Assembly (NCBI GenBank): GCA_024275165.1
Contig: JAJRZQ010000002.1
Location: forward strand, 140,679-189,420
Direction: 5' to 3'
Origin: a bacterium
GTDB lineage: Bacteria; SAR324; XYD2-FULL-50-16
Length of the DNA: 48,742 bases
Shown here: positions 18,588 through 30,009 of the stretch, one piece after another
Numbering within the stretch: the stretch's first letter is position 1
How the letters are laid out: each line of letters starts with the position of its first letter
Notes under the pieces: generated by a model
The model's database searches: none
The model's input: only the letters and a program-made list of their open reading frames with translations
Told to the model about the DNA's origin: nothing
Translations under genes and position numbers: made by a program

Positions 18588-18800
18588 GGTTGGTTTTACT
18601 GTGAAGGATCGTTTCCGGTTAGCTAAGCCTAGCTTAAACTGGGCAGCCTTAAAAGCGAATTTTCAAAAGCCTCAAATCAATTTCTCGTTGCCCAGAAGAC
18701 CTAGCTATGGAATATTTATGGAAAAGGAACCTGTAACTTTGTTGATCTATAGGCGGTTTTATTTTTTCGCTTAGGAATTAACTTCCTGGTTTGCAAGTCG

Positions 18801-19010
18801 CCTCTAAGGAAACTCTGAAAAATGTAGAGTTTCCTTAGAGGCAGGGATGCCTTGCCAAATCAAAACGAGTAACTTATTGATTCGCGTTGGGATTGTGGAT
18901 TGCATTCCCAACCGAAAAGACCGAAAAACTCGACGCGCCTCCAGGGCCATCATCAGCCCGAAGGGCACGAACCTACCGCTTGAACAAGCGGTAGGCAAGG
19001 AGTTTTTCAT
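18801..19010 (-). mobile_element. MITE-like dispersed repeat, copy A (inverted)
   Basis: About 210 bp, inverted relative to 32682-32892 and 47296-47510. The left end here is a perfect 16-bp stem cctctaaggaaactct / agagtttccttagagg (18801-18841). The other end reads ctaccgcttgaacaagcggtag, then gcaaggagtttttca. A reading frame begins ATG at 18847 (MPCQIK, later RKDRKTRRA) and its first 55 or so residues are preserved in copy C. No transposase is encoded, so mobilisation would need an enzyme in trans. The rest of 18588-19060 shows no gene. Confidence 0.75.
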
Positions 19011-19060: not shown

Positions 19061-19780
19061 ATGACAGAGCTTCCCCAACTGTTTTTGGGTCTTCAAATCC
19101 CTCCAGCAAGCGAACGGCCCGCTTGGCTGATGGAACTCATTGAAAGGGCCTTCAGTCAAGAAGAAGAATTAAAAGGGCTGCACGAGGTGGTGCAAAGCCT
19201 GAAAACGCAATTGGCCCAGCATCGCCCCGGCCCGGCCCCGGCTTTAGATATCGAGGATGACACCCCAAATGTGGATGCTTCCGGCAAGGGGCTCAAAAAA
19301 ACCTATGAGCCTTTGCGGATCGACGAACAAGCCCTGGAGGCTCAAGCGGAAAAAGAACGGGCCGGAGCCCGGGAAGAGCGCGCGGAGCCGCCCCCCGCCC
19401 CGGTAAAGAAAGAAGAGGAAGAGGAAGAACCGATTTTTGAAGACCTCATCGAAGAGGAGGAAGAGGCACAAAGGGAGGTGGACCCGAAATATAGCGTGAC
19501 CGTGGATCGGGATTTAATGGAGTTGATTCCCCTGTTTTTAAAGCAGCGCAGCCAAGAGGCGGAAGATATCAGCCTCTGGGTGAAGATGGGCGAGGACGCG
19601 AAAATCGTTCAAACCTGCATGCGCGCCAGGGGGGTGGCCTTAACCTATGGTTTTGATTATTTAGCCAAGCTGTTGGTCGCCTTGCCCCAAGCAGTGCAAA
19701 AACAAGATCGCAAAATGGCAGATAAGCTGATCTTTGAGATCAATTTTTTGCTGGATCAGTGCCATATCATCTACGGTTAG
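19061..19780 (+). CDS. HPt-like protein without the phospho-histidine
   Basis: The 239-residue protein has an N-terminal helical region (1-60), a charged, Pro/Glu-rich linker (about 65-145), and a C-terminal domain (about 150-235) matching histidine phosphotransfer domains of the type ..LIP.FL..R..E.....W....D...I...-RG....YGF..L. The key segment reads IVQTCMRARGVALTYGF, where the family normally has an H-x-x-(K/R)-G phospho-His motif; Met stands at the His position. No other His fits. It is probably a docking or scaffold domain. AAGGTG precedes the ATG. One base separates it from a double-receiver gene, forming a three-gene operon. Confidence 0.7.
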   Translation: MTELPQLFLGLQIPPASERPAWLMELIERAFSQEEELKGLHEVVQSLKTQLAQHRPGPAPALDIEDDTPNVDASGKGLKKTYEPLRIDEQALEAQAEKERAGAREERAEPPPAPVKKEEEEEEPIFEDLIEEEEEAQREVDPKYSVTVDRDLMELIPLFLKQRSQEAEDISLWVKMGEDAKIVQTCMRARGVALTYGFDYLAKLLVALPQAVQKQDRKMADKLIFEINFLLDQCHIIYG

Positions 19781-19781
19781 C

Positions 19782-20726
19782 ATGAAAAGACATCGAAAAA
19801 TTTTGCTGGTGGAGCCGGAGCCTCGGCAGGTTTCCAGATTAAAGGAATTGCTCGCGCCGCTTGCCGCTGATTTTGTGTGGGGTAAAGATGGAGGCGAGGG
19901 GGTTCGTTACGCCTTCAGCCATTACCCGGACTTGATTTTAGTCAATACCAAGCTTCCGGCGGTCTCGGGGGTGCAGATGGTGCGCCTTTTAAATATGATG
20001 GGCTTGCGCATTCCCACCATATTTGTGGCCGAGCAGGCCGAGTTTTTAAAGTATAAAACCAACCTGCCCCAGGTGGAGTACAGTTGCTGGATCAGTCGCA
20101 TGGCAGAAGAATTACTGCCCAAGGCAACCGAGATTTTAGATGACGCGGAGCGCAGTTTTCGAGATGTGCAATATGTAATGGACGCAGGTGAGTTTTTAGG
20201 TCTTTTGTCGAGACATGATCGAAAGAAAATCTTAGTCGCGGCCGATGTTCAGGTGGTGCGGAATCTTTGCGGGCAGTTGGAGGCAAACGGCTATTACGAG
20301 GTCTATTCCGCTATTGATGGGCGGGAAGCCTTATTTAAAGCCGTGGCCCTGCAACCAGACCTGCTGCTGTTGGCGCACCAACTGCCGACCCTTGATGGCG
20401 ATAGCCTAGCCCGCTTGCTGTATATTCTGGGCCACCCCTTGCCGATTGTTATGCTGACCCTGCACCAAAACCCGACCTTGCAAGAGGAAATGGCGCATTT
20501 AGAAGGGGTGAAGGATTTTTGGATTTCCGGCCAATGCATGGCGGATCGCAGAATGTTTCAAGATTCGGTGCAGAAACTCGTTGACCTGACAGAACGGGAT
20601 AAGGAAAAACTCGATAAGGCCTACCGCGAGATCGACAGCATGAATTTGGGCGGCGGTTCGACCTCGCCGGATTTAATGGATGACCCGACTCTGTTTCAAG
20701 AATTTGAAGATATCGACCTGGATTAA
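19782..20726 (+). CDS. Tandem receiver protein, both phospho-Asp sites lost
   Basis: The 314-residue product (ATG 19782, one base after the upstream stop) has two CheY-like domains (about 5-125 and 143-265) and an acidic tail. In the first, the acidic pair reads VEPEP and the acceptor position reads ILVNTKLP (Asp to Asn). In the second, the pair reads VAAD and the acceptor reads LLLAHQLP (Asp to Ala). The conserved Lys is also missing in both. The fold pattern (LP..SG and LP.LDG after the acceptor) is clear, so these are pseudo-receivers that presumably work through protein binding. An ATG further upstream, inside the previous gene, is in frame but less likely. Confidence 0.8.
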   Translation: MKRHRKILLVEPEPRQVSRLKELLAPLAADFVWGKDGGEGVRYAFSHYPDLILVNTKLPAVSGVQMVRLLNMMGLRIPTIFVAEQAEFLKYKTNLPQVEYSCWISRMAEELLPKATEILDDAERSFRDVQYVMDAGEFLGLLSRHDRKKILVAADVQVVRNLCGQLEANGYYEVYSAIDGREALFKAVALQPDLLLLAHQLPTLDGDSLARLLYILGHPLPIVMLTLHQNPTLQEEMAHLEGVKDFWISGQCMADRRMFQDSVQKLVDLTERDKEKLDKAYREIDSMNLGGGSTSPDLMDDPTLFQEFEDIDLD

Positions 20727-20729
20727 GTC

Positions 20730-21632
20730 ATGAGTTTAGAATTGAAAGCGGTTTTAATCAAACCCACTACCGAAACCCTAGGGGTCTTAGAAGATAGCAA
20801 GGTGAAGGTCATTCAAGCAAACGACTGTTTAGAGGGGGTTCGCCTGATCATTCGCTACCGGCCCGATTTTGTTCTGAGTACCATTGATTTGCCCGATTTA
20901 AGCGGCTTGACGATGGCGAAAATCTTATACCTCTTAAAGGTGCACACGCCCTTGGTTTTGACCGACCCGAAACACAATCACCAGCATGAAAAGAGGGTGG
21001 AAGCCTTGCCCAATGTAAAGGGATACTTTATGGAGTCGGGCATTTATTATGATTTAAAAAGCTTTATCGCCAAGTTGCAAAGCGTGAGCCCCTCAGCGAA
21101 AGATAAAGAACCCCCGCCGAAGTATGAATACAGTTTTAAAGAGCGGGAATGGGCAAGCTTAATGAGTCGGCGGAAAAAAAAGCGGATTTTGCTGATCGAA
21201 GAAGAAGAACTAACCAGAAAAGCCCTCTTGATTAAGCTGGACGGCTACACCGATTACGATCTCTTTATGGCGACCAACGGGCTGGAGGGCTTGACCAAGG
21301 CTTTGTTGATCCAACCGGATCTAATCTTAAGCGAAATTGACCTGCCTGAAATCAATGGCTTGGCCATGAGCCAGATTCTTTATATTTTAGATAAACCCTT
21401 TCCTGTGGTGTTTGTCACCGCAAACGACCATAAGGAAACAAAACGCAAAGCGACCCATATCGAAGGAGTGATCGGCTTTTTGCATAAATCCCGCTTGCCG
21501 CGCAAGGGGTTTTTGGTCATGGCGGTGCAGCAATATATGCACAAGGCAGAAAAATTGGCCCAATCTTTAGGCGAGTCCTATAGCAAAGCACGGGCAAATC
21601 ATTTGGAAACCGAGCAAGCAAGCCTTTTTTAA
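20730..21632 (+). CDS. Tandem receiver protein, acceptor Asp replaced by Thr and Glu
   Basis: The 300-residue protein has two receiver-like domains (about 5-120 and 148-275). The first has no acidic pair (VLIKPTTE), and the acceptor position reads VLSTIDLPDLSG (Thr). The second keeps acidic residues at the pocket (LLIEEEE) but has Glu at the acceptor (LILSEIDLPEING), with a Thr (VFVTAND) and a possible Lys (LHKSRL). Glu at this site often mimics the phosphorylated state. It starts three bases after the previous gene, so the HPt-like and both double-receiver proteins are probably made together and may form one complex. Confidence 0.8.
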   Translation: MSLELKAVLIKPTTETLGVLEDSKVKVIQANDCLEGVRLIIRYRPDFVLSTIDLPDLSGLTMAKILYLLKVHTPLVLTDPKHNHQHEKRVEALPNVKGYFMESGIYYDLKSFIAKLQSVSPSAKDKEPPPKYEYSFKEREWASLMSRRKKKRILLIEEEELTRKALLIKLDGYTDYDLFMATNGLEGLTKALLIQPDLILSEIDLPEINGLAMSQILYILDKPFPVVFVTANDHKETKRKATHIEGVIGFLHKSRLPRKGFLVMAVQQYMHKAEKLAQSLGESYSKARANHLETEQASLF

Positions 21633-29649: not shown

Positions 29650-30009
29650 ATGAAGGTTTTAATCATTGAAGATTGTCGAGTTCATTTAAACTTACTCCAG
29701 CGACTTTTAGGAAAAGCAAAAGGAGTTGAGCCAATCGGTGCCTTAGACGCCTTAGAAGGCTTCGCTATTTTGCGTACGATTCCCGATATTGAAGTGGTGG
29801 TGATTGATCAAAACCTACCCTACCTCAAGGGGATTGATTTTATCGCAAAGTTGAAGGCGACGCCCCCCTTTGACCAAGTGCCGATTTTTATTTCCAGCGG
29901 GGAAGAAATGTCGAACGATTTTCTTGCCGCCGGTGCCGATGAGGTGATGATTAAGCCTTATGATGTCGCTTTATTTGTGCAGGCTTTTGAAAAATACCGT
30001 AAAGCTTAG
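29650..30009 (+). CDS. Single-domain response regulator (CheY-like)
   Basis: A 119-residue stand-alone receiver with an intact phosphorylation site: acidic pocket IIEDCR, acceptor Asp in VVVIDQNLP (residue near 53), Ser in ISSGEE at the Thr/Ser switch position, and Lys in MIKPYD. There is no output domain, so it should act by binding a partner such as a flagellar motor switch, a kinase or a phosphodiesterase. AAGGGG precedes the ATG. It contrasts with the four receivers at 19782-21632, which have all lost the acceptor. Confidence 0.9.
   Translation: MKVLIIEDCRVHLNLLQRLLGKAKGVEPIGALDALEGFAILRTIPDIEVVVIDQNLPYLKGIDFIAKLKATPPFDQVPIFISSGEEMSNDFLAAGADEVMIKPYDVALFVQAFEKYRKA

Follow-up and report, generated by a model that had tools for sequence, protein, structure and literature searches.

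Organization of the operon

The window analysed here, a 48,742-nucleotide stretch of DNA, belongs to a 2.69-Mb draft genome of SAR324 (Candidatus Lambdaproteobacteria) and carries three closely spaced genes on the forward strand, encoding an HPt-fold protein and two proteins with tandem receiver domains, referred to as A and B. The features of the locus are as follows:

18800-18842, inverted repeat with perfect 17-bp arms and a 9-nt loop, lying ahead of the operon and likewise ahead of the divergent enoyl-CoA hydratase gene
19061-19780, + strand, gene 1, HPt-fold protein of 239 aa (open reading frame)
19061-19477, + strand, N-terminal extension of gene 1 (residues 1-139), with a predicted helix at 21-53 followed by an acidic, Glu-rich linker
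19478-19780, + strand, HPt-fold domain of gene 1, with Met187 (19619-19621) at the phospho-His position and Arg190 in place of the following Lys
19782-20726, + strand, gene 2, tandem receiver protein A of 314 aa (open reading frame, Pfam)
about 19794-20156, + strand, receiver A1 of gene 2, acceptor Asn55 at 19944, acidic pair EP, Thr replaced by Ala and Lys by Ile
about 20220-20576, + strand, receiver A2 of gene 2, acceptor Ala198 at 20373, acidic pair AD, Lys replaced by Ser
20730-21632, + strand, gene 3, tandem receiver protein B of 300 aa (open reading frame, Pfam)
about 20739-21095, + strand, receiver B1 of gene 3, acceptor Thr51 at 20880, acidic pair KP, degenerate family-wide
about 21177-21533, + strand, receiver B2 of gene 3, acceptor Glu202 at 21333, acidic pair EE, with both Thr and Lys retained

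The reading frames and the gaps of 1 and 3 bases that separate them are as originally predicted, as are the Met at the phospho-His position of the HPt motif (QTCMRARG), the replacement of all four receiver acceptors by Asn, Ala, Thr and Glu (LVNTKLP in A1, LLAHQLP in A2, LSTIDLP in B1 and LSEIDLP in B2) and the degeneracy of the acidic pair in three of the four receivers. The start ATG of gene 1 is directly preceded by AAGGTG. The operon is flanked by the divergent enoyl-CoA hydratase gene upstream and a lipoprotein-like gene downstream, with no kinase gene adjoining. The inverted repeat has an RNA z-score of −6.4 and occurs once in the genome, and its region has no match in Rfam; it could be an operator or a leader hairpin.

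Predicted folds of the three proteins

Both receiver proteins are matched by the Pfam Response_reg profile (PF00072; 1e-17 and 2e-18). Taken alone, A2 and B2 score above the PF00072 cut-off, and A1 and B1 fall below it, though both can be aligned within their orthologue families. The structural model of gene 2 contains two complete, confidently predicted receiver folds, and the best full-length PDB match of protein A, extending across both receivers, is the tandem receiver part (REC-REC) of PleD, which differs in carrying a GGDEF output domain that protein A lacks. The acceptor Asp of CheY-like receivers is absent from all four positions, and the domains fit the description of pseudo-receivers, i.e., the PF00072 fold without the acceptor Asp or other catalytic residues.

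The protein encoded by gene 1 is not matched by the Pfam Hpt profile, which does recognize its orthologue in another SAR324 genome (G009). Its C-terminal 95 residues (145-239) are confidently predicted by AlphaFold to form a four-helix bundle (mean pLDDT about 95), and the closest PDB structures are HPt proteins, albeit with a weak full-chain E value of 0.017. Thus, the predicted structure and the orthology to Pfam Hpt proteins both point to the four-helix bundle of an HPt domain. Since Met187 and Arg190 replace the phosphorylatable His and the Lys of HxxKG, we regard the product of gene 1 as an HPt-fold protein rather than a phosphotransfer protein. A weak, below-cut-off match of gene 1 to Pfam MRG was discarded, as the matched residues lie within the HPt bundle.

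Relatives of the operon in SAR324

Relatives were recovered from the genome collection by alignment-based search, a nucleotide-pattern search with protein B alone having yielded none. Of 52 genomes of the SAR324 class, 11 encode the A-B receiver pair, and a pattern-based scan across 84,980 species genomes revealed no full-length relatives outside SAR324/Candidatus Lambdaproteobacteria, 2 of its matches being filed under the older name Deltaproteobacteria. No relatives were found in the viral collection. In 3 genomes of the same family (G003, G006 and G009), the operon consists, in this order, of a hybrid kinase with the architecture REC-PAS-HisKA-HATPase-REC-REC, an HPt protein, A and B; in a further genome (G008), the kinase, A and B are encoded together and the HPt on a separate contig, and in other genomes with the A-B pair neither the HPt nor the kinase adjoins. 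The operon of the window shares with the SAR324 module the tandem arrangement of A and B with the HPt upstream but lacks the adjacent hybrid kinase. Nor was a kinase orthologue found elsewhere in the source genome, in which the best match is 34% identical over part of its length, whereas the true kinase orthologues are 47-64% identical to each other over their full length. The orthologous operons of the same family, which include the hybrid kinase and retain His and Asp, bear out the proposed derivation of the three genes from a phosphorelay.

The extent of the change is apparent from a comparison with 3 SAR324 operons (L028, L032 and L035) that have the same HPt-A-B gene order and encode receiver proteins 31-37% identical to those of the window over the whole length. 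B1 is mostly degenerate in these operons as well as in the window. By contrast, the 3 operons include the kinase, A1, A2 and B2 keep both Asp and Lys, and the HPt has the motif HxMKGNGAGYGF and no N-terminal extension.

Two further arrangements were noted among the relatives. In G028 (L037, 8076-11080), the A gene is tandemly duplicated (A', A, B) downstream of the alanyl-tRNA synthetase gene, every copy of A keeping its Asp. In G001 (L102, 292-1516), a His-intact HPt relative lies directly upstream of a single gene encoding a receiver and an apparent GGDEF domain, an adjacency which suggests that this type of HPt can feed cyclic-di-GMP output.

Loss of phosphotransfer residues in one lineage

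In every other orthologue (11 A and 10 B sequences), the acceptor of A1, A2 and B2 is Asp. The switch Lys is likewise invariant at these 3 domains in the other orthologues; in the window, B2 alone of the three retains it. The situation is different for B1: 8 of 10 orthologues have a residue other than Asp at the acceptor (K, K, K, E, E, Q, N and P), and the acidic pair and Lys are also generally missing. Because the catalytic residues are missing from most orthologues, B1 is an old pseudo-receiver of the family, degenerate in nearly all members. The notion that all four receivers lost their chemistry here thus holds for A1, A2 and B2, the B1 loss being older and family-wide. The original prediction had also raised conservation of the substitutions in related genomes; they are instead private to this lineage. 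Given that the residues are intact in relatives and B1 is degenerate throughout the family, a single lineage, represented by one genome, has lost the operon kinase, the His of the HPt and three Asp residues (A1, A2 and B2).

The HPt protein is strongly diverged. Its 6 relatives carry the His in GHxxKG, where gene 1 has CMRARG, and only 8 of the 20 residues invariant across these relatives are kept, the changes clustering around the former His position. The active face of the domain is remodelled well beyond its His, and, given the 8 of 20 residues, the face that normally docks receivers may now function differently and the domain, which is looser than the receivers, may be partly relaxed. The protein has also gained its 139-residue N-terminal extension in this lineage; no homologues of the extension were found across the SAR324 class, and residues 1-102 are present in this genome only.

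Selection versus decay

The simplest account of these losses would be decay, i.e., a module left functionless after the departure of the kinase and now drifting towards pseudogenes. The absence of the kinase, the retention of His and Asp in the orthologues and the strong divergence of the HPt fit this account, as does protein A, which is slightly more diverged than others, keeping 78% of the other conserved sites compared with 86-98% in orthologues. However, the losses are selective: of the sites that vary little or not at all among the other orthologues, only 3 of 10 catalytic positions are kept in the window versus 80 of 96 others (Fisher p 0.0008). All 853 codons of the three genes are open, and their codon usage and GC3 match those of neighbouring genes, N-terminal extension included. 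The neutral probability that 853 codons stay free of stops while 10 or more of 14 catalytic residues change does not exceed 6e-9, whatever the time depth.

A codon branch model, run on distant orthologues rather than close relatives, rejected omega = 1 on the receiver branch of the window (lnL −18598.7 versus −18617.6, delta lnL 18.9). Whole-branch omega above about 0.1 fits poorly, a value which is a bound rather than an estimate, because dS is saturated. An omega = 1 fit with three long branches was disregarded, its optimum having run to infinite length. Nor do the receivers evolve unusually fast relative to RpoB: the A-B branch of the window (1.16 versus 0.176 for RpoB) is only slightly faster than that of the sister genome G004 (0.97 versus 0.172) and similar, relative to RpoB, to that of G028 (0.78 versus 0.11), both of which keep Asp. 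According to the original prediction, intact orthologues combined with a dN/dS near 1 would indicate decay; the orthologues are indeed intact, but selection at this locus is not neutral. Taken together, the selective catalytic loss, the open frames with normal codon usage, the rejection of omega = 1 and the RpoB-relative rate make simple decay of the receivers unlikely, and we give decay of the module as a whole a low probability. A recent end of selection, within about 0.03 substitutions per site or less, may nevertheless be compatible with the data.

Signalling context in the same genome

The genome encodes 93 detectable receiver domains (one duplicate wrong-strand row having been dropped from the tally), 82 with the acceptor Asp and 11 without, which rules out a genome-wide loss of receiver chemistry. 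Four of the 11 Asp-less receivers are located in this operon, a clustering that is not expected by chance given the 93 domains, and the loss is thus local to it. The CheY-like protein at 29650 is normal, as predicted, with the residues ED, D, S and K kept. Pfam HPt domains number 21, with His at the expected place in 19 of the 20 sequences that were read.

The seven other Asp-less receivers (L188, L194-L196 and L202-L204) are distributed over contigs C37, C32, C30, C22, C20 and C17, two of them sharing the short contig C37; their acceptors are E (four times), N (twice) and S (once). An HPt-like domain elsewhere in the genome (L206, G000:C15:28009-28263), with a His apparently shifted by one position (ANHLRGS), is possibly a second His-less HPt.

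With about 90 other receivers and more than 20 HPt domains in the cell, nearly all with intact sites, targets would be plentiful for a decoy, in which the inactive HPt, receivers or both bind the kinases, HPts or receivers of other relays and block phosphotransfer. The precedent is plant AHP6, which lacks His and competes with normal HPts for kinases and regulators (PMC6963811). A decoy would, however, be expected to keep its docking face, whereas the active face of the HPt is remodelled beyond the His, and the joint inactivation of the HPt and all receivers suggests a self-contained unit. We thus consider an inhibitory role improbable.

A probable phosphorylation-independent module

Since almost all the residues for phosphate transfer are lost yet the genes are intact and under selection, the three proteins probably now act through protein contacts alone. 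The reading we favour, with reasonable though by no means full confidence, is that a former phosphorelay module persists as a binding or scaffold unit independent of phosphorylation. The stronger version, in which a whole relay branch (the HPt and two tandem-receiver proteins) was converted in one lineage to a phosphorylation-free signalling or scaffold complex, is plausible but tentative, and a "purpose-built complex" of the three proteins, as originally proposed, would go beyond the observed losses in the same direction.

Such a conversion would have started from the SAR324 module of hybrid kinase, HPt and two tandem-receiver proteins. In this lineage, the kinase gene would have departed from the operon, the HPt would have had its His replaced and three receivers their Asp, and the proteins would have remained folded and selected. 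The HPt bundle could then, like the receiver folds, serve as a fixed interaction surface that does not depend on phosphorylation, and gene 1 might add dimerisation or partner contacts through its new N-terminal helix and its acidic linker. Asn and Ala acceptors, as in A1 and A2, should fix a receiver in an unphosphorylated-like state. B2, which combines a Glu acceptor with intact Thr and Lys, is perhaps locked in an active-like one; Glu at this site mimics phosphorylation in some regulators but not in all (PMC12632262).

Alternatively, the receivers might have retained their allostery and respond to a ligand, redox state or another modification, inputs of the kind suggested for RitR and other aspartate-less receivers (PMC4395418). 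No conserved alternative site is recognisable, only one dead-form sequence being available for comparison, and no ligand motif was identified; we regard this reading as having little likelihood.

Comparison with known systems

Pseudo-receivers and His-less Hpt domains are each known singly (PMC4395418, PMC12632262, PMC10542144). RitR, FrzS and ShkA likewise combine the receiver fold with a missing acceptor Asp and an altered acidic pair, Thr or Lys, but usually as a single pseudo-receiver attached to an output or beside other working parts, whereas in the window four receivers and their partner HPt are all inactive and none is joined to an output domain. Arabidopsis AHP6 is similarly an HPt fold without His, and plant pseudo-response regulators include receivers in which Glu occupies the Asp site; these are, however, encoded by separate genes beside a working relay rather than in one operon. 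Among bacteria, ChpA of P. aeruginosa, a multi-Hpt CheA, also contains an Hpt fold without His but differs in retaining the His in its other Hpt domains. Searches of the open-access literature revealed no bacterial operon combining an inactive HPt with receivers that are all inactive too.

The operon thus adds to pseudo-receiver and pseudo-HPt biology a case with a living counterpart in sister genomes. A 2025 review calls the working of pseudo-receivers a mystery (PMC12632262), and what His-less Hpt domains do in CheA proteins has been stated to be undetermined (PMC10542144). Because both kinds of pseudo-domain are united in one three-gene unit and chemistry-intact orthologues exist in the same bacterial family, what remains of the role of a relay module without phosphate could be tested directly, and, if the conversion is true, the working ancestral form in sister genomes permits a before-and-after comparison.

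Protein A ends in an acidic tail, DDPTLFQEFEDIDLD (window positions 20660-20726), which is absent from the orthologues and, with the acidic linker of gene 1, makes for an unusually acidic set of proteins.
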